Notes under the pieces: model-generated
Database searches by the model: none
Seen by the model: the letters and a program-made list of their open reading frames with translations, nothing else
What the model was told of the DNA's origin: nothing
Source: Schizophyllum amplum
Taxonomy: Eukaryota > Basidiomycota > Agaricomycetes > Agaricales > Schizophyllaceae
Direction: 5' to 3'
NCBI GenBank assembly: GCA_007026445.1
Contig: VDMD01000002.1
Coordinates: forward strand, 248,001 to 312,000
DNA length: 64,000 bases
In this document: positions 7,006-63,560 of the stretch, one piece after another
Position numbering within the stretch: position 1 is the first letter of the stretch
Layout: each line of letters opens with the position of its first letter
Position numbers and translations under genes: made by a program

Positions 7006-7497
7006 ATGTACCCCGCAAGAGCTACCGGATACCGCCAAAATCCAGCTGGTCTCTCCCACGCGGCGGGAAGCATGTCTTTCCTTGGCCCAGCACTGCACCG
7101 GGTTCGCGTCTTCTTCGTTGGGATCTTGTCTGTCCCTGGCTTCCCGCAATTTCATACCTGCACTGCCGAGTTCTTCTCAGATGCGTACGGGCGTGTCAGT
7201 GTGCGCTTCCACCCCAATCACATCCAGGTCAACAACGGAGTAGTGCAGCAGATCATTAATCCGAATGTCGTGTTCAACGTCGCGCCTCCTCTGGCCGCGT
7301 TCCGCATCGAGACGCCGAACGCTTTCGGGGTGTGGGCGCCGCTCCAGTTTAATGCTGTATTTGCATCATATCGAATGGACTGGGGCCCGGAGTATCGCAT
7401 CTATGTCGGTGGCGTGCTTTGGGAGCTATGGCGCCCCCAGTTGCAGATGTCGCGCCAGGCCTACGGACCTGGCCAGCACAACGTGGCTTTACAGTAG
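7006..7497 (+). CDS. Hypothetical protein, possible family A/B/C member C
   Basis: Open frame of 163 codons from ATG at 7006. The C-terminal half (PLAAFRIETPNAF ... YRIYVGGVLWELWRPQ) repeats the pattern seen at the end of the central exon of the two upstream genes (Tyr-rich strand, Gly, then VLW). The N-terminal half may be partly untranslated or intronic. A donor at the 3' end (7493) could extend the protein by one short exon. No function can be assigned. Confidence 0.35.
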   Translation: MYPARATGYRQNPAGLSHAAGSMSFLGPALHRVRVFFVGILSVPGFPQFHTCTAEFFSDAYGRVSVRFHPNHIQVNNGVVQQIINPNVVFNVAPPLAAFRIETPNAFGVWAPLQFNAVFASYRMDWGPEYRIYVGGVLWELWRPQLQMSRQAYGPGQHNVALQ

Positions 7498-8907
7498 TTG
7501 CTTTCGGTCAGCTCATCCCTTTCAATTATTTCGACACGCGCCTGACACTGCATTAGATGGTTGGTGGAACCAATCGTTATATGGATCGCAGTACGGTGTC
7601 GCCATGATAACGTATGGTATTGAATTCCATCGTGCCGGTGCACCGAGACGGTCGCCCATGATAGTACAATTGCAAGCATGCCGTCCGTCTCGCACTTCAG
7701 GATGTGCGTGCTTATTTATATTTATATCTCGATTGTGGCATAGGCGAACAGCGAATACCCAATCGCAAGACGGGGAAATACTTGGGCAATTGTTTGCAAC
7801 CTCCTATCCTGGAATCCCTGGATTCCTCCGTTCATATAGGCGATCCTGAGTCGGTGCGAGCGGTGCTGCGCGTGTCCACCTGGCCTCATTCATATGTCGT
7901 CACGGTAAGAGTCAAGTGCACTGTAGACATGCATATTCACTGACACCGATAACAGTACTTGCGAAGATGTGGGTACTGCAATTTCAACACAGCACTCGTG
8001 ACTTTCTCGTGACTTGCTTGCTCTGCATTGGATATCTTCGTCACGGGTCTTCGTGCCGAGCTGGTGCGCCTCTATCTGCTCTTCATATTCTCAGTGACAG
8101 CATTCCATGCTTTATCTAGATCCTCTAGAACACGCACCGACGCGCGTCTCTGGTCAACGGGCACGCGGCAGACAAACAGAAAACAAAAGACAATGACTCT
8201 GAGCTCCGCAGGTGAGAACAAGGCAACACGTGTTTGCTGTTCTGAGACAAGGCAGCTATTTTCCCTCCGACCGAACAGCGGAAGCCTCTGCAATTGTGCT
8301 CTCTTGGCCCTCGAGGGCCTATTTACCTACGGGAGAATGATTTGGATAGAACTCTTGCAACGTGTCAGCGTTTCCTCTGGATCACGATCGACTGTCGGCT
8401 TTCAGCGAGGCCCCAACTAACTAGCACACCCGTGCGCCACACTTGCTCTGATTACGATCTTGAAAGCTATCGGATGTACGGTGAGGCACCTGTCGCAGTC
8501 CTCAAAGCCAGATCGCACTGATGAGTCAATCAGCAACCCCAGCATGAATCGTACGTTCCTATTTCTCTTTCAGAAATGTCTCTCCCCAGGATGACGCGGA
8601 TGTGTGGCGGCCCCATAATGGACTGCATTCACGATCTGAGCATGGTAGGACAATGCAGCGCTGCCTTCGCCGTTTGAGCCGTCCGGCGGCAGACACCGTT
8701 CCCCCGTGCGTTATTGTCATAGAGAAGCAGGTTTATGACTTGTTTGTGAACCTATGCTGGGTCCTTTGAGGGAAAGAGGTACTATATAAGTGCTGGCTCG
8801 TATGCGTTTCGACTTACATTCCCTCACTCGCAGCGACCCCCGTTGTCGACTTCCGTCCGCTCGACTACGTCGTTCCCTCCCAGTTACATCATCCTACACT
8901 GACTGCC
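7498..8907. promoter_or_regulatory. Intergenic region and upstream region of BED-like gene 1
   Basis: No gene is supported from 7498 to about 8200. From about 8205 the sequence resembles the upstream regions of the two other BED-like genes. It has a GAGCTCCGCAGGTGAG block at 8208-8223, TATTGTCATA and GTTTATGAC near 8714-8741, and a TATATAAG box at 8783-8790, about 120 bp before the ATG. The order and spacing are the same in all three copies. Confidence 0.5.
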
Positions 8908-10097
8908 ATGTCGACGACTTCCATCCCGTACGTCGCCTATTCGCGTCTGCCCTTGTTGTTGTTACTGAGACCTTCCTCTTATAGACGCGGCCGCTCGATG
9001 CGGGCCATCAAGGGACCGGACCCCTGCTCTCCTTCCCCCTCTTCCTTTTCCTCGTTGTCCTCCGAGTCCGAGCGCTCCACATCCTCGACCAGCTCGCGAT
9101 GCTCCAGGTCCAAGCCCAAGCCTCGCGCCCTCAAGACTGCCGCGCCCCCACCGCCCGGAGAACATGCCGCGTATCGAACGGAAGCGGAGCGCTTCGAGTT
9201 ATTGCGCGCCCATCTCTGGATTGCCTCGTTCTCCGCCGTCGGCGCGATCTGCGCGGCCTGCCGCCGCCGCATCCTCGCGGACATCCGTAGCAGCGGCCGC
9301 TTCGTAATACCCAACTTCATTCGCCACACGGAGGAGAAATGCAAGGCGCGGCGCCGGATCGAGAAGGGCGAGCGGGCATTCCCCCAGCCGAAGGCGAGTG
9401 AGGCGTCGTTGATGGACGACGAGAGGAAGGGGCGGACGGGCGTGAAGTTTGAGGTGTATGAAGGTGGCGCGCCGCGCCCGGGGACTGTCTTGAAGAAGAA
9501 GAGCTCGCGGAAGGAGGTCACCGTGACGGCGAAGATGGAGGTGGATGAGAACAACGACCATGACTTGACCGACTCTAACGTTGAGGTGAGTACTACACTG
9601 CTTTAGAGGAAACACCGCTTATCGTCTTTCAGGTTGAGGGCAAGTCCTCGATGGAGCTCCGCGCTGCACCTTTCTTTTCACTGGCACCCACCGTCATTTG
9701 CACTCCGCAGACGACGTGTCTACCGCTACAATCGACGCACATCCCATCGCCGTCGGCGTACCGCCTCCAGATCGCTCCGTCGCAGCCCTCGCCCAACTTA
9801 TCCTCGACTATACGCGATCGGTCGCCCTCCATGACTCTGGGAGAGCGTACGCCATTCGAGATCCCGCGCGAGGTGGCACCCTTCGCGACTCTGCGCGCGC
9901 GATCGCCATTCACGATCGATGAGTCCCTTTCTACGGGCATGTCGCCTGCCCAGTGGGACTCCGACTGCTCTGACGACGATGATGAACCCATGAACGATGA
10001 GCCCATAGTCAGTGCATTCAGGATGTACCACGGCGACCTGCGAGTTACTCAGAGGCTCTCGGAGGAGCGGTCAACCGCGTCCTCGATGTTTGAGTAG
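8908..10097 (+). CDS. BED-finger-like protein, copy 1
   Basis: Exons 8908-8927, 8985-9585 and 9633-10097 give 361 aa. The core has an aromatic-rich lead (LWIASFSAVG), then Cys-x2-Cys (CAAC), about 22 residues, and His-x4-Cys (RHTEEKC), the spacing of a BED-type zinc finger, followed by a very basic KARRRIEKGE helix. The N terminus is Ser/Pro-rich with a run of prolines before the finger. The C terminus carries a conserved acidic MSPAQWDSDCSDDDDE block and ends LSEERSTASSMFE. Both intron positions and phases match the copies at 31805 and 62675. BED fingers bind DNA and often derive from hAT transposases; here no transposase domain is present. It is the most diverged of the three copies. Confidence 0.68.
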
Positions 10098-30288: not shown

Positions 30289-31804
30289 GGGGCTGGGAAG
30301 TACGAGTGTGAAGAGAAATGTTTAGGTAGAGGGGGTACCGGATGGAGGGGGCTTGGAACATGTATGTACGATACAAGAAGTGCGAAATGGATGCATTGGA
30401 ACTGACGTCGTGCTCGAGATGAACGTGCTTGCTGATAAGAGGAAGGGTCTTTTTTGGGTGAGGTAAGCGGAGACGCGAGCGAGGCAAGCTACTTAGTACC
30501 TAGCTAGAAAGCAAAAATTTGCCCTTGACGTGTCGTATCCACACGTGACCATTAACCCCCTACATGCCTCTCCGTGTTCATGTAAAGTCAAGCCTCTGTA
30601 GACGCAGCGCCGGGATATGCGCGACCTCATTTAGGAAGCAGTAACACGTCGACATGCATGCGACTCGCAGCGGCAATGTGAATTTGCGAAGTTGAACATC
30701 GCGTCATGTGACTTATGCGTAATCTTGCCTTCGGATCAGAATCCCGAGTGTACTTACTCCCGGTGCCGGGAATTGGCCGGGAACACGGCTCGTTTGACCA
30801 TGGCGACCATCCTCTCCGCGATTCGTCAGCTCGTCATCCTGCCCTGCGGTCTCTGCTGTGCTTCTGTATACAGAAACAATGACAGTACTTCTTCAGCATT
30901 CAAGTCAACGCCAGGACGTCTAGCGAGACTTTATCGGAATTACGCGAGAACGACAAGAGAACACTGTCTTTTTTCGTCGATGCAAGCGCTTAGGTAATGC
31001 CAACGCGCTGCGACTTCCTCCTGGTTCTCTCAAAAGGTTCATGAGCGAGGACCTCCACGATTGAAGCCGAAGTACACGCGTCGAACGCGCACTTCCTATC
31101 AGGGAGAACAATAGACAATTAGCTCCGCAGGTGAGTACAAGGCAGCGCGTGCTTCTGGAACAAGGCGAATGCTTTTCTTCTCGGTCGATGGCGGACGCAG
31201 CTACTATCTACCTTGACCCTTGAGCACTCAATAACCTGCAGAAAGCCATGACCTCAACTGCAGGTTTGTAGTGTGGCGCAAAAGCTGTGTCGTCGACGGC
31301 GGCGATACCCTCAGTCCCGCCGCCGGTGAAAGAAGCGATATGCATCTGAGAAGAAGATCCTTTCATGATACAGCGTTACGAGTCTCTCAATGCGAGCCCC
31401 GCGCCATGTCAGGCGAGACTGAAGTGAGTTTTCTGCTACCTCACCGCTCCATCTTACACAGACTTGTCAAAGAGATAGCTTTGATGCGCACTTCATCAGC
31501 ACGGCACATTCGTAGACAAGAAACGCACCTTCATAGACAACTCAGACCTTTTCTCAACAGGGCGCTTGGATGGACAATGCAGTGACGACCTGTCGTGGGA
31601 TATCCGCACCGCAATTGCAGGTCCTGCCGCGTGCTATTATCATAAACTAGCTGCTATGCATGTTTATGACCTGCATGCTGGTCCTACACTCAGGCCCTTG
31701 CGGTATATAAGAAGCACTTCCTCTCCATACCCTCTCCACACCTCTTGACCACAGCGACGAAGTTCCTCGATTTCCTTCCACACAAACTACAATACTCGTC
31801 GACA
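30289..31804. promoter_or_regulatory. Intergenic region; left part of inverted duplication
   Basis: No gene is supported. From about 30950 the sequence matches, in inverted orientation, the region 62676-63560. The best-conserved part is about 31571-31690 and includes GTTTATGACCTGCATGCTGG. A CAG/GTGAGT donor-like block is at 31129-31141, and TATATAAG at 31704-31711 lies about 95 bp before the ATG of BED-like gene 2. Confidence 0.55.
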
Positions 31805-32919
31805 ATGTCCTCTACATCTGCCAGGTACGTCGCATCACCGCAGGCGCTATTGTTCACACTGAGACTTTTCCTGATTAGGCCTGGGTTCTCGATGCGCGTC
31901 ATCAGCGGGCCGAATCCCTGCTTCCAACCTGCCTCCTCTATCCTCGACTCGACGCTAGCGGCACGCCCAGCATGCCCGACTCTCTCGCGATCTTCCAAGC
32001 CGAAGTCCAAGGCGAAGCCCAAGCCCAAGCCGCGCACCCTAAAGACCGCCCCGCCGCCACCGCCCGGCAGCCGCGCCACCTACCGCATGGAAGCCGAGCG
32101 CTTTGACGACTGGTCCGCCTACATCTGGGTCGCCGCCTTCTCCTCCGTCGGCGCACGATGCGCGGCCTGCCGCCGTCGCATCCTCGCGGACGTCCGATCC
32201 AACGGGCGCTTTGTGATCCCGAACCTCACGAGGCATATTGAAGAGAAGTGCAAGGCGCGGCGGCGCATCGAGAAGGGCGAGATGCCATTCCCGGAGCCTA
32301 GGCGATATGAGGCTTCGCTGGAGGACGACCACAGGAAGGGGCGCGAGGGCGTCTTATACGAGGTCTTCCGGGGCGGTGCGCCGCCTCCGGGGACGATCTT
32401 AGCTGAGAAGTCTTCGCGGGAGGAGTTGGGGCCTGTGATAGAACCGGCGGCGAAGCAGCAGCAGCAGCAGGAGGAGGAGGAGGAGGAGGAGGAGGAGCGA
32501 GACGATGAGGACAACATCCAGTCGTCTATGACTGACGTATGTATCTCTTCTCATTGCTCAGAACATCGCTCATCTCTTCGCAGATTACGAATATACCGTC
32601 GGGATTGCCACTTCCGCCTGCATCTGGCATCTGTCCCGCGATTCACACCATCCAGACAAAGCAGCCTCCTTGCCCGCGGTTCGTCTCTAGAGGATGGTCT
32701 GCGTCCAAGCCATCATCGACTCTGCGGGAGTGCTCGCCATTTCGAAGCAGCCAACCTGTTCATCTCGGCATGTCGCAGGCCGAGTGGGACTCTGACTCAT
32801 CCGACGACGAGCTCATGGATACGGACGACGTGTACCCACCGTACGACTATGGCCTGAGGGTACAACAAGCGCTCTCGCAAGAGCGGTCGACGGCCTCGGT
32901 GGACGTCGATATGTGCTGA
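31805..32919 (+). CDS. BED-finger-like protein, copy 2
   Basis: Exons 31805-31824, 31879-32536 and 32584-32919 give 337 aa. The finger core reads YIWVAAFSSVGARCAACRRR then RHIEEKC, that is Cys-x2-Cys ... His-x4-Cys with an aromatic lead, then the basic KARRRIEKGE. A Pro run precedes it and a PKSKAKPKPKPR basic stretch lies upstream. Near residue 205 a repeat-coded Gln5-Glu8 tract (32453-32503) is unique to this copy. The C terminus keeps the acidic MSQAEWDSDSSDDELMD and QERSTASVDVDMC blocks found in copy 3. Intron sites and phases (2, then 0) are identical in all copies. It is probably nuclear DNA-binding; no transposase is attached. Confidence 0.72.
32453..32503 (+). repeat. CAG/GAG triplet repeat
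   Basis: Five CAG codons followed by about eight GAG codons inside BED-like gene 2, coding a Gln-Glu tract. It is absent from the other two paralogues, so it expanded after duplication. Confidence 0.7.
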
Positions 32920-33750
32920 TTCCGCATCCTATGTATCTAAGCCTGACACTACCTCTATCTTACGCACTGTATTAGTTATGTATCATCATCCATCCAAGAG
33001 ACTTCAAGCTTTATCATCAGATTATTCGTTGGCGTGTTCTCTGCGCACACTAGCTACAGCGGGTTTCTCCGATGCCGCATTATAAATCGAAATGTATCTC
33101 ATATCCGCATGAGTTGGAGAGCTTCCGATGAGGGCGCTGTCCAGGATAGCCACTATTTCCATCGAAAATCGACCGAGACCTACAGTGGATATGGCTGCCA
33201 TAGCCGGTACTGCACTTGTAGTGCCGGCGAGCGACGTACTGGCTGCCAACGACATATGCTTATAGGTGTTTGTATTGGTAGGCGCACCTCGGGAGTTCCC
33301 GAACCATTGTTTATGCTGTCTCCATTTGGAACCACATTGTGCTCTCTCTTCCCCCCAACTCGCCCATGCCCACCGGCTATCCTCGATCTTGGTCGTTTGA
33401 GGGTTATGCACGCAACACATAGGCTTAATATCTGCGCAGGCACCTCTGCCCACGGCGGTCCAAACCGTCCGTATGAAGGACGCGACGTAAACATCGGTGT
33501 TTGTCAAGCGATGCCTGACCAGCAACTATGAGAATCAAAGCCTCGATTGAGGCGCCTGGATGCGTCTGATGTCAATGTCCGTCTGCGGCATGCTAAAACG
33601 ACAATGGCTCAAGGTATCGCTCAGCAGGTGCGTTGACCTCTTCATTGTCAGTGGGTCTACGCTCATGTATGTTACCAAGCCTGTTTGTGTTCTGTGACCG
33701 ACTCACGATGGTCGAGTTCCATCAGCTGTCTTAACGGGTCCTCTCTGTAT
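32920..33750. other. Intergenic region
   Basis: 831 bp. A 167-codon minus-strand frame (33525-33022) starts with a non-ATG codon and shows no family likeness, so I do not call it. Nothing else is recognised. Confidence 0.35.
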
Positions 33751-59076: not shown

Positions 59077-59644
59077 CTTGACGCGTCCTCGTCGATGAGA
59101 TCGAGTGCTGCTCGCTGTGGCCTTGACCTTGTCGTTGTCGGTGTCGCGCTGGTTAACGCGGTGGAACAAGGATGAGGGTTCGGTCCAGGACGTGATTTGG
59201 GAAAACTGCTCGCGGATCCCGCGCACCGCTCTAAAAGCCCTTGAGAGCTTCTTAGACAGAAAGAAGCACGGAGTGCTACCCGGGCGAGGTTGTTAGACGG
59301 GCTCTGGACGGGCTTTCTGCTATCGTGAAACGTGTCGCCGTCAAGCATTTCCTTCGTCATCCTTGTGAACAAGCGACTACATCGTGCTAACAACTTGCCT
59401 GCCACACAAATGAGCAAGGCTATCGCACCGAGAAGCGGCGCTCCAAGATCGTCGCCTATCGCTCAGAATTGGCTCAGCAAGCGCGAGTAAAGTTCGCCCT
59501 ATAAGCAAGAAGCCGGGATCTTGAAGCTACCAGGAAGCCAAGAGAAGAGCTTCATGCAAGGAGCCGACGGGGCGAACGCAAATGTACACGAAAGGAAAGC
59601 GGACGCGAGCTAGCAGACTGAGCACTCGGACAGGTAATGAGAGC
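59077..59644. other. Intergenic region upstream of the LTR element
   Basis: 568 bp between the MFS start and the LTR element. Frames extending from the MFS N terminus (59226) are probably 5' leader. Its last 4 bases, GAGC (59641-59644), form the left target-site duplication. Confidence 0.4.
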
Positions 59645-59819
59645 TGTAGGGTCTGGTATCTGGCTAGGCTTGGATTCCATCACAGGTCACGTGTCCGCGT
59701 ACATACATCGTCACGTCTCGCATTGTATTCCTTAGCTCACTCCAGCGCGGAGGTTACGAAGCATCCCATTCTACCGCACGACATTCCGATTCTCTGCCAG
59801 AGCTTCCAGCCATCCTACA
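59645..59819 (+). repeat. 5' LTR (175 bp)
   Basis: Starts TGTAGG, ends CCTACA, and is identical base for base to the 3' LTR. An internal TCACGTGTCC E-box-like word may be a promoter element. Confidence 0.9.
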
Positions 59820-60069
59820 TCTGGAGCCCACCGCTCGGTTGAGATTAGAAGTTTACGGGTCTGACAACGATTTCAGAGGCCCACCGAGGAGCGAGCGAGC
59901 GCAGTTCGAAGGAGATCGAGGACGATCAGGAGATCCAGGAGGAAGGACGAGTAAAGAGCTGCCGTTATCCAAGCTATCTGGGGAGAGCAGATTACTAGGG
60001 CAGAGCGAGTTCCCCATCAGCCGTGCGCCACCGTCGTTTTCATCGCACCGAGCACTCATCATCATCACC

Positions 60070-60894
60070 ATGCACATCCGTATCGTCTTACGTCCACGCA
60101 TGCCCCGAGGCTCACGCATCCGCGACTGGCGGAAGCGGCGCTGCCAGATGCGCGAGGTCCTCGAGATCTTGTACACCGAGCCGATTTACCGCATCTACTA
60201 CACGAAACATACATCCCGAGCGATCTTCAGCCGTGCCGGGAGTGGCTCCCCTCTGTTCACTGGCGGCTACCACGATCCCCGCGATGTCGACCGCTTTCTC
60301 GAGTACCAGTACTACCGGCAGGTTGCGCTCATGCTCCGCCGTCTCGAGGCCGGCTACACTGTCCACACCACGAACCTGCATGATGCTCTCGTTCAGCAGG
60401 CTGCCGTCGACGCCACCGCGCACTTCCAACTCTTGATGGCCGATTTGTATCATTCCATCCCGCCTCTATTCCGTGCAGACCTCGTCGCGCGCGATCTACA
60501 CACATCACCATCACCGCCTTTATCCATCTCGGGCTCATGTGATGCCTTCGACCTCGAGCACCCACGGAGCCCACCGAGCAATCCATCGGCGAGTCAGATT
60601 ACAGTCGGCGACGTCTTCAGATGGGATCGGCAGGGACGTGATTCGCCGTCCACGCAAGATGTGCGCGATGCATGCAAGAAGACAGCGAGGAGGCGGAGGA
60701 GAACGAGGCGGAGGATGAAGAGGGTCCTGGAGGCGAAGCAGACGATACCAAGCCATGCGAGTTCGCTGCCGCTCCGTCCGTATGCCGGCCGCGCCGTCAA
60801 CCGTTATTTGCCGCCAGTTGTCGAGCAAGTCCGTGCTCCGCAGCCAAGGAGGAGGTATGGAGGTGGAAGGAGCCCTTTTTTACGATGGAGTTGA
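60070..60894 (+). CDS. Single ORF of the LTR mini-element
   Basis: 274 codons from ATG at 60070; the same frame is open upstream to 59839 but without an earlier ATG. It fills most of the 1.13-kb internal region. The N-terminal part (MPRGSRIRDWRKRR, then VLEILYTEPIYRIYYTKHTSR) and a helical middle (FLEYQYYRQVALMLRRLEAG ... VDATAHFQLLMADLYHSIPPLFRADL) are not recognised. The C terminus is strongly basic (KKTARRRRRTRRRMKRVL ... RRRYGGGRSPFLRWS), as in nucleic-acid-binding Gag tails. No zinc knuckle, protease or polymerase motif is present. It could be a divergent Gag or a captured host gene. Confidence 0.55.
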   Translation: MHIRIVLRPRMPRGSRIRDWRKRRCQMREVLEILYTEPIYRIYYTKHTSRAIFSRAGSGSPLFTGGYHDPRDVDRFLEYQYYRQVALMLRRLEAGYTVHTTNLHDALVQQAAVDATAHFQLLMADLYHSIPPLFRADLVARDLHTSPSPPLSISGSCDAFDLEHPRSPPSNPSASQITVGDVFRWDRQGRDSPSTQDVRDACKKTARRRRRTRRRMKRVLEAKQTIPSHASSLPLRPYAGRAVNRYLPPVVEQVRAPQPRRRYGGGRSPFLRWS

Positions 60895-60951
60895 TGGTCA
60901 TTGGTGTGTAGGTGCACCACGGAGGGTGCACATTTGAGAGTGGGGAGGGGA

Positions 60952-61126
60952 TGTAGGGTCTGGTATCTGGCTAGGCTTGGATTCCATCACAGGTCACGTG
61001 TCCGCGTACATACATCGTCACGTCTCGCATTGTATTCCTTAGCTCACTCCAGCGCGGAGGTTACGAAGCATCCCATTCTACCGCACGACATTCCGATTCT
61101 CTGCCAGAGCTTCCAGCCATCCTACA
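60952..61126 (+). repeat. 3' LTR (175 bp)
   Basis: Identical to the 5' LTR and directly preceded by the polypurine tract (60936-60951). Confidence 0.9.
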
Positions 61127-61587
61127 GAGCATCTCGCAGATGCTCAAGTAGGGCACATGCCCAGAGACGACGGGGGGGAAGAACGAGGAGCAGTGATGGG
61201 AAATCGCGGGAAGTTCCGAGGCGGTTCCGAGGTACGGTTGAACGCGAACGGTCACAGAGCGTGAGTCACGGTTATGGGCCCATCGCGCAATACATTGCGT
61301 CGACCAAGCGCCAAAGCAAGCTTCAGTTGCACTCTCAACATGTTCCCAATGTACGGTTTTATTTGATAGAGTACGTGCAAGAAAACAGACATTTGTAGAC
61401 CCAGATGTGCGCGAGTAAGTTATGTTAGATACGTAGGCAGAACACGCCAATGAATAATCTAAATGTAAGTATATTGGTGCAGTCCTTTGAGTGTGATCCA
61501 TAGCTGAATATCAGTAGTACAGTGTAAGGTATGAAAGCCAAGGGCAGAGGTACATAAAGTTATCATTAAATGCAGAGGATGCGGGCA
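61127..61587. other. Intergenic region
   Basis: 461 bp between the LTR element and the 3' end of BED-like gene 3. It begins with the right target-site duplication GAGC (61127-61130). No gene is supported. Confidence 0.4.
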
Positions 61588-62675
61588 TCAGCACATATCG
61601 ACGTCCATCGAGGCCGTTGACCGCTCTTGCGAGAGCGCTTGATGGACACTCAAACCACCGTCATACGCTTCGTACGCGTCGTCCATGAGCTCGTCCTCGG
61701 ACTCATCCTCAGAGTCCCAGTCGGCCGGGGACATGCCGAGATGGACAGGTTGGTTGCTTCGGAATGGTGACCGCTCGCGCAGAGTCGATGACGGCTTGCC
61801 AGACGCACGCCATCCTCTGGAGATGAACCGCGGACAAGGAGGTTGCGATGTCTGGATGGTGGCGATCATGGGGTAGGTCGATGCGGAATAGAGCTGCTTT
61901 CCCGAGGGTACATTCGTGACCTGCAAAGAGATGAGCGACATTCTGAGCCAGGAGACGAAGCACATACCTCAGTCATGGATGGCTGGAAGTTTTTCTCGTC
62001 ATCTCCCTTCTCCTTCTCTTCCTGCTTTGCCGGTACTTTTACCACCGGGACCAACTCCTTCTGTGAAGACTTCCCAGCCAAGACCGTTCCCGGAGGCGGC
62101 GCGCCGCCCTGGAAGACCTCGTATAAGATGCCCTCGCGCCCCTTCCTATGGTCGTCCTCCAGCGAAGCCTCATATCGCCTGGGCTCCGGAAACGACATCT
62201 CGCCCTTCTCGATACGCCGCCGCGCCTTGCACTTCTCGTCAATATGCCGCGTGAAATTCGGGATCACGAAGCGCCCGTTGGATCGGACGTCCGCGAGGAT
62301 GCGACGGCGGCAGGCCGCGCATCGCGCGCCGACGGAGGAGAAGGCGGCGACCCAGATGTAGGTAGACCAGTAGTCGAAGCGCTCGGCCTCCATGCGGTAC
62401 GCGGCGCGGCTACCGGGCGGTGGCGGCGGGGCGGTCTTCAGGGTGCGCGGCTTGGGCTTGGACTTGGACTTGGGCTTCGGCTGGGAGGATTGCGAGAGGG
62501 TCGGGCATGCTGGGCGTTTGGCGGGCGATGAGTTGAGGATAGAGGAGGCAGGTTGGGAGGAGGGCTTCGGCCCGCTGATGACGCGCATCGAGAACCCAGG
62601 CCTAATTAGGAAAAGTCTCAGCATGAACAGTAGCGCTTGCGGTGATGCGACGTACCTGGCAGATGTAGAGGACAT
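61588..62675 (-). CDS. BED-finger-like protein, copy 3
   Basis: Exons 62675-62656, 62601-61968 and 61920-61588 give 328 aa. The finger core is YIWVAAFSSVGARCAACRRR ... RHIDEKC, with the same Cys-x2-Cys ... His-x4-Cys spacing as the copies at 8908 and 31805. It differs little from copy 2, but lacks its Gln-Glu tract. The C terminus has MSPADWDSEDESEDELMDD and LSQERSTASMDVDMC. A TATATAAG box (minus strand) lies at 62768-62775, about 95 bp upstream. Probably nuclear, function unknown. Confidence 0.72.
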
Positions 62676-63560
62676 TGTCGACGAGTATTGTAGTTTGAGT
62701 GGAAGGTAATCGAGGAGCTGCTTCGCCGTGGTCAAGAGGTGTGAGCGGGTATGGAGAGGAGGTGTTTCTTATATACATCAAGACGACTGGGTGTAGGACC
62801 AGCATGCAGGTCATAAACATGCATAGTAGCTGGTTTATGACAATAGCACGCGGCAGGACCTGCAATTGCGGTGCGGAAATCCCACGACAGGTCGTCACTG
62901 CATTGTCCATTTAAGCGCCCTATTGACTCGGAGAGAGAGAAGGTCTGAGTTATCTATGAAGGTGAGGTGCTGTTGAAGTGCGCGCCAAAGCTATCTCTTT
63001 GTCGGGCCTGTGTAAGACGGAGCTTGAGCGCGTGAGGTGATAGCAAGCTCACTTCAATCTCGCCTCCCATCGCTATGTGACGGGGGCACTGCGAGTTATT
63101 GAGAGGACCATGATGAACAACATACCGTGTCATGAAAGGACCTTCTCTCCAGATGCGTATCGCTTCTTTGACCAGCGGCGGAATAGCGAGCATCGCCGGA
63201 GTCAACACTGCTTTCGCGCCACACTGACGACTGGAGGAGGTCAATGGGTATCTGCAGGTCAATGAGCGCGCCAGGACCAATATTCACAATATCAGGACAT
63301 GCGTCCGCCATTCGCCAAGAAGGAAATCATCCACCTTGTACCAGAAGCATGCGCTGCCTTGTGCTCACCTGCGGAGCTAATTGTCTATTGTTCTTCAGAT
63401 GAGCAGCGCGCGTTCGACGCGTGTATCCCGGCTTCGCGATGGTCCTCGCTCGTAACTTTGTTGAACGGCCGAGTGGAGTTCGAAACGCTTTGACATTGAG
63501 CGCTTCGGCTCGCCCGCGTCCGCGAAAAAACGAAGTGTTTTGCGTGATTCCCATAACATC
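61590..63560 (-). repeat. Inverted ~2-kb segmental duplication, right copy
   Basis: Reverse-complement partner of 30950-32935, covering BED-like gene 3 and about 0.9 kb upstream. The CTCCGCAGGTGAG block is at about 63367-63381 on the minus strand, roughly 700 bp before the ATG, as in the other copies. Confidence 0.7.

Follow-up and report, generated by a model that had tools for sequence, protein, structure and literature searches.

Several kinds of non-autonomous LTR elements have been described. TRIMs, as defined in PMC4717578, are shorter than 1,500 bp, are represented by two full copies or by one full copy and a solo LTR with different target-site duplications (TSDs), and are without coding capacity, while PMC10886601 puts them under 1,000 bp. 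TR-GAG elements are LTR elements with a single gag ORF, for which PMC8704663 reports a new insertion in Arabidopsis, belonging to an ATCOPIA subfamily, and the same source names BARE-1 and BARE-2 as a helper-parasite pair.

In the window (the whole 64,000-nucleotide stretch of Schizophyllum amplum DNA analysed here), we detected a mini-element that is, with high probability, an LTR retrotransposon without reverse transcriptase (RT) or integrase, in which one predicted gene replaces gag-pol and which probably relies in trans, for both copying and insertion, on proteins of the kind encoded by two full-size elements, A and B. The mini-element shares with A and B the primer-binding site (PBS), a hairpin, the polypurine tract (PPT), the LTR ends and the GAGC/GCTC target, and is therefore interpreted as a non-autonomous, TRIM-sized hitchhiker.

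Anatomy and age of the mini-element

The mini-element has a total length of 1,482 bp, with an internal region of 1,132 bp. Its features are the following.

59641..59644, + strand: target-site duplication GAGC, left copy (sequence reading)
59645..59819, + strand: 5' LTR, 175 bp, TGTAG...CTACA, without internal ATG (repeat comparison)
59820..60069, + strand: leader of 250 nt without ATG, between the 5' LTR and the ORF
59822..59834, + strand: PBS TGGAGCCCACCGC, 13 nt complementary to the CCA-extended 3' end of tRNA-Lys
60070..60894, + strand: 274-codon ORF, pI 11.0, with a basic C-terminal part, in the same direction as the LTRs (ORF translation)
60909..60934, + strand: 26-nt block with a 7-bp hairpin (stem 60912-60918/60925-60931)
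60942..60951, + strand: PPT GGGGAGGGGA, adjoining the 3' LTR
60952..61126, + strand: 3' LTR, a 175-bp copy of the 5' LTR (repeat comparison)
61127..61130, + strand: target-site duplication GAGC, right copy (sequence reading)

The sequence-only reading had proposed a recent LTR element of this length without polymerase or integrase, and each part of the proposed anatomy was recovered. The 5' and 3' LTRs agree at 175 of 175 bases and have TG...CA ends, the 4-bp GAGC duplication flanks them on both sides, the primer-site candidate starts with TGG 2 nt past the end of the 5' LTR, the PPT abuts the 3' LTR, and the intact ORF with its basic tail is in place. Paired TG...CA LTRs with a TSD, together with a PBS complementary to a host tRNA and a PPT ahead of the 3' LTR, characterize a non-autonomous LTR element, and the interior is without RT or integrase, its sole long ORF having no Pfam match. 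This anatomy is more than chance, with a 13-nt tRNA match and a 3' end found again in two further LTR elements. Scanned against Rfam (E up to 1), 59400-61400 gave three matches, none at the gathering score and no tRNA.

The absence of differences between the LTRs (0/175) corresponds to a divergence below 1.7% (95%) and supports a recent insertion. We searched the 49.65-Mb assembly (309 contigs) with the mini-element and obtained six matches: the element itself, three LTR-only places, and two places carrying the final 50 or so bases of the interior together with the LTR start. The three LTR-only relatives are 86% (L007), 84% (L008) and 73% (L009) identical to the mini-element LTR, suggesting earlier movement of this LTR type. 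L007, on contig C266, is an older solo LTR of the mini-element type with the TSD CCTG, and L008 and L009 are without TSD. The sequence-only reading had proposed a search for further copies with different flanks; the solo LTR has a different TSD, and no second full-length copy is present in the assembly. An empty allele of the mini-element site was not found in this assembly.

Two duplications were observed in addition. A perfect 927-bp inverted repeat lies on either side of the solo LTR (L007:1-927 and 7029-7955). In the window, 61566-63435 and 31063-32940 form an inverted duplication of about 1.9 kb with 82% identity, with a partial copy near 9103-9492.

Candidate helper elements and the shared signals

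Each of the two partial matches of the genome search is the 3' end of a complete LTR element; we call these elements A and B.

Element A: contig C241 (L014), reverse strand, 7,778 bp; identical LTRs of 201 bp; TSD GAGC
Element B: contig C286 (L015), 7,766 bp; identical LTRs of 178 bp; TSD GCTC, which is GAGC on the other strand

Each contains one open gag-pol frame (2,397 codons in A and 2,421 in B), in which the domains for aspartyl protease, RNase H and integrase zinc binding follow one another as in Gypsy elements. In A, RVT_1 was detected only below the cutoff; it is not listed for B, which is 78% identical to A across the whole A RT-RNase H piece; the integrase core domain is listed for neither, and the integrase is recognised by its zinc-binding domain only. 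By this order of protease, RT, RNase H and integrase domains, A and B are of the Ty3/Gypsy type. The A/B polyprotein has 246 protein relatives at E up to 1e-20, and Leucocoprinus, Candolleomyces, Trametes, Ganoderma and Acaulospora are named among the 120 matches listed. The A RT-RNase H piece has 103 matches in the genome, and the next full-length ones after B are 42-44% identical. At C112:1650335-1650905 (L038 and L039), on the same contig as the window, two neighbouring pieces are 83 and 85% identical to the A RT-RNase H; they are short and broken by stop codons.

In the coding DNA aligned by BLASTN, A and B agree at about 74%, and in their LTRs at 59%. The first ATG lies 827 nt after the 5' LTR in A and 653 nt after it in B, with the gag-pol frame already open ahead of it. 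Over 166 aligned codons of this upstream frame, the differences between A and B number 86, 62 and 112 at codon positions 1, 2 and 3, a coding-like pattern, and the alignment score is 95 versus a maximum of 88 in 300 shuffles. The Gag of A and B may start at a non-AUG codon or via splicing. A 369-codon open frame extends from the B 3' LTR into the flank (L015:8602-9708), and B may therefore sit within a host gene.

For element A, an empty site with a single GAGC at the junction was found on contig C269 (L070). The A 3' flank and C269 are 92% identical over 1,361 bases, and the joined flanks are 95% identical over 802 columns. We take C269 for the other haplotype of the A locus, although an older segmental duplication would give the same empty site; parts of the assembly seem to be present as two haplotypes, 92-95% alike (C241/C269). 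No empty site was found for B, whose 3' flank has no matches elsewhere other than short repeats or sequence at 67% identity.

The likeness of the mini-element to A and B ends within the PBS and returns about 50 bases before the 3' LTR; the sequence between is unrelated, with no other convincing similarity to the two in the interior. The 26-nt block TAGGTGCACCACGGAGGGTGCACATT occurs at three places in the 49.65-Mb genome at up to three mismatches (reversed control, 0), one each in the mini-element, A and B, just ahead of the PPT and LTR, and folds into the 7-bp hairpin in all three. Over the 49 bases of the hairpin, PPT and LTR start, 46 are alike between the mini-element and A, 47 between the mini-element and B, and 44 between A and B. 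The PPT-LTR junction at 0 mismatches is likewise found at three places, namely these three elements; at three mismatches the pattern has 99 places versus 139 in the reversed control and is no commoner than in the control. The last LTR bases are also similar in the three elements. A and B are thus candidate autonomous partners with shared cis signals. The idea of an autonomous element sharing the mini-element LTR holds for the LTR ends only, and not for the whole LTRs, which in global alignment are only 58-60% alike between the mini-element and A or B.

The insertion targets are GAGC for the mini-element, GAGC for A and GCTC for B, two words that together account for 1.2% of all 4-mers across the first 59 kb of the window; this agreement rests on three sites, and the solo LTR L007 has CCTG instead. 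The hairpin was not found in 1.7 kb near the 3' end of a more distant element on C79, where the LTR of that element was not identified. An exact 21-nt hairpin match is absent from the IMG/VR and GTDB contigs, neither collection being fungal. By title and abstract opening, none of the literature matches listed concerned the mini-element, its LTR or the hairpin.

The PBS leads to a host tRNA read as tRNA-Lys. With CCA added, the tRNA-Lys 3' end is complementary to 13 nt of the mini-element, 19 nt of A and 18 nt of B, and the 13 PBS bases of the mini-element are identical in A and B. Twelve genome places end in GTTCGACCCTCGCGGTGGGCT and five more are one-base variants, so that 17 fit the tRNA 3'-end pattern without mismatch; with up to one mismatch allowed, this pattern has 32 genome places versus 11 in the reversed control. 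For ten of these loci, excised, standard ARAGORN called Arg (2), Lys (2), Val (1), an undetermined tRNA (3) or nothing (2); with introns allowed, nine of the ten gave Lys(CTT) (4), Lys(TTT) (2), Arg (1), Ala (1) and Val (1). We interpret the ten loci as tRNA genes with an intron, and the majority of the program calls, though not every one, point to tRNA-Lys. By eye the tRNA bodies hardly differ, and the Arg, Ala and Val calls obtained with introns allowed are therefore regarded as miscalls due to the intron.

Two other candidates were rejected. A tRNA pattern in which the acceptor stem pairs throughout (GCCCACC...GGTGGGCT) had three places, none tRNA-like by eye, and two in the reversed control; the acceptor stem of the actual tRNA has a G-T pair where this pattern assumed full pairing. 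A PBS-like place on C277 with one mismatch is not preceded by such an LTR within 260 bases, by eye.

The 274-codon ORF and the competing explanations

The ORF is predicted to be coding, with translation starting at the first ATG in the element. Under each of the two codon-usage models its frame outscores the other two forward frames (z 6.0 and 3.7 versus shuffles), its third-position GC is 68% versus 60 and 52, and the 425 nt from the LTR start to the ORF ATG contain no ATG (P 0.02 under a first-order model, 0.0024 under base shuffle). The frame stays open through the 250-nt leader, with codon usage there that is not coding-like. The predicted protein has a pI of 11.0 and a charge of about +25 and is most basic over its last 79 residues, a tail that suggests RNA binding.

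The protein appears to be an orphan. The profile search proposed by the sequence-only reading, run with an E-value limit of 10, matched no Pfam family. A six-frame protein search of the genome gave no paralogue (best other match, E 1.9), and no homologue beyond its own database entry was found among 5.77 billion proteins with the whole ORF or residues 28-150, in a search of limited sensitivity whose candidates must share exact 5-residue words and have similar length. The public gene model BD626DRAFT_564379 (P0001) coincides with the ORF over 197 residues, beyond which it enters the 3' LTR and flank, an extension that is probably an annotation error. That gene model is what favors an ordinary gene flanked by chance repeats; however, such repeats are ruled out by the PBS, hairpin and PPT shared with other elements and by the LTR relatives elsewhere, and with the TSD in place and the model itself crossing into the LTR, we assign this explanation a vanishingly small probability.

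Three further readings concern the origin of the interior. A fortuitous ORF, with the interior as non-coding filler and the element as an ordinary TRIM, would fit the orphan sequence. In 2000 Markov simulations per model of the internal region, a + strand ORF of at least 274 codons with an ATG start appeared by chance in 0.1% under the first-order and 6.6% under the second-order model; the ORF length alone, only mildly unusual under the latter, is the weaker evidence. Moreover, with the window ORFs as codon model, one reverse frame scores 9.3 versus 5.6 for the true ORF frame. Against this stand the codon usage relative to shuffles and the ATG-free 425 nt, and we regard a fortuitous ORF as rather improbable. 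A captured host (or viral) gene, acquired by a template switch between helper RNA and cellular mRNA, would explain why the likeness to A and B breaks off in the PBS and is back only shortly before the 3' LTR, with unrelated sequence in between, but searches of the genome, with DNA and with six-frame translations, and of the protein database yielded no source gene or fragment, at limited sensitivity; we regard capture as rather improbable as well.

The position of the single ORF where gag would be, its correct orientation and its basic C-terminus are what a TR-GAG-like derivative would have, in which the ORF would encode a Gag that has evolved so fast as to be no longer recognisable and that assembles jointly with helper particles. 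The comparison with the A and B polyproteins speaks against it, with no similarity by blastp (best E 0.083 over 26 residues) and a probability of 0.3% by hhalign (a single sequence against two), as do the missing Pfam match and the lack, by eye, of a CCHC knuckle like that of element A. The single-sequence fold prediction (mean pLDDT 44.7) is too poor for a fold search and does not help this reading. We consider it unlikely. The earlier alternative of a new Gag type or a captured host gene was backed on neither side, as neither polyprotein similarity nor a source gene was found.

Proposed mobilization and comparison with known systems

For the preferred reading, a hitchhiker on Ty3/Gypsy-type elements, we infer from the shared signals that the mini-element is mobilized in trans by A/B proteins. 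Its LTR would drive an RNA, which the helper Gag would package, perhaps through the hairpin. At the PBS, tRNA-Lys would serve as primer for reverse transcription, the PPT would initiate the plus strand, and the helper integrase would recognise the LTR ends and insert the copy at GAGC, while the ORF protein would be made from the first ATG of the mini-element. The LTR bodies differ from those of A and B, and a closer helper may therefore exist that was not seen; the shorter PBS match (13 nt versus 18-19 in A and B) also speaks against this reading, as do the lack of a second full copy and of an empty allele in the assembly, the missing TSDs of L008 and L009 and the CCTG of L007, and the incomplete RT and integrase domain matches of A and B. 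The actual helper may be A or B, or else an element not seen here that has the LTR body of the mini-element.

A more speculative extension, which we hold to be distinctly improbable, is a two-part parasite that combines a minimal cis set (PBS, 26-nt hairpin, PPT and LTR ends) for copying by a Ty3/Gypsy helper with its own new, non-Gag RNA-binding protein, aiding competition for helper particles. If this were true, the hairpin would be a packaging or reverse-transcription signal of the helper family.

The mini-element, A and B amount to a natural deletion experiment, in which 49 bases are kept (44-47 of 49 per pair) amid diverged coding DNA and LTRs. The hairpin, PPT and LTR start are thus a short candidate for the cis signals of the fungal Ty3/Gypsy machinery, and the same genome keeps a surviving empty site for one candidate helper insertion, that of A. 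The orphan ORF raises the question of whether hitchhiker elements carry genes of their own.

Compared with TRIMs, the mini-element at 1,482 bp lies within the limit of 1,500 bp given in PMC4717578 and exceeds the 1,000 bp of PMC10886601. It has LTRs, a PBS and a PPT and no recognisable retrotransposon protein, as TRIMs described in PMC4717578 do, and its one full copy is accompanied by a solo LTR (L007, 86%) with a different TSD (CCTG versus GAGC), a combination included in the same definition. It differs in that a predicted 274-codon ORF with mostly coding-like codon usage fills its interior, whereas TRIMs lack coding capacity according to that paper. The Helenus TRIMs of PMC10886601 are LTR elements that are likewise short and non-autonomous and occur in basidiomycetes, some Agaricomycetes among them; they are described with a tRNA-like sequence in the LTR and with 5-bp TSDs in fungi, whereas the mini-element has a 4-bp TSD and no tRNA by Rfam.

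With the TR-GAG elements of PMC8704663 the mini-element has in common two LTRs, one ORF and autonomous relatives in the same genome. The Arabidopsis case of that source is an ATCOPIA element, whereas the mini-element is tied to Ty3/Gypsy-type elements. Its ORF is without detectable Gag similarity, unlike the single gag ORF of the TR-GAG kind. The BARE-1/BARE-2 pair likewise combines an autonomous element with a non-autonomous one that would rely on it. Most of the coding region is retained in BARE-2, whereas no part of gag-pol was found in the mini-element. Taken together, the size, the copies and the lack of a retrotransposon protein agree with TRIMs and the ORF does not agree with TR-GAG; the mini-element would therefore work like a helper-dependent mini-element and is filed as a coding variant of the TRIM kind.
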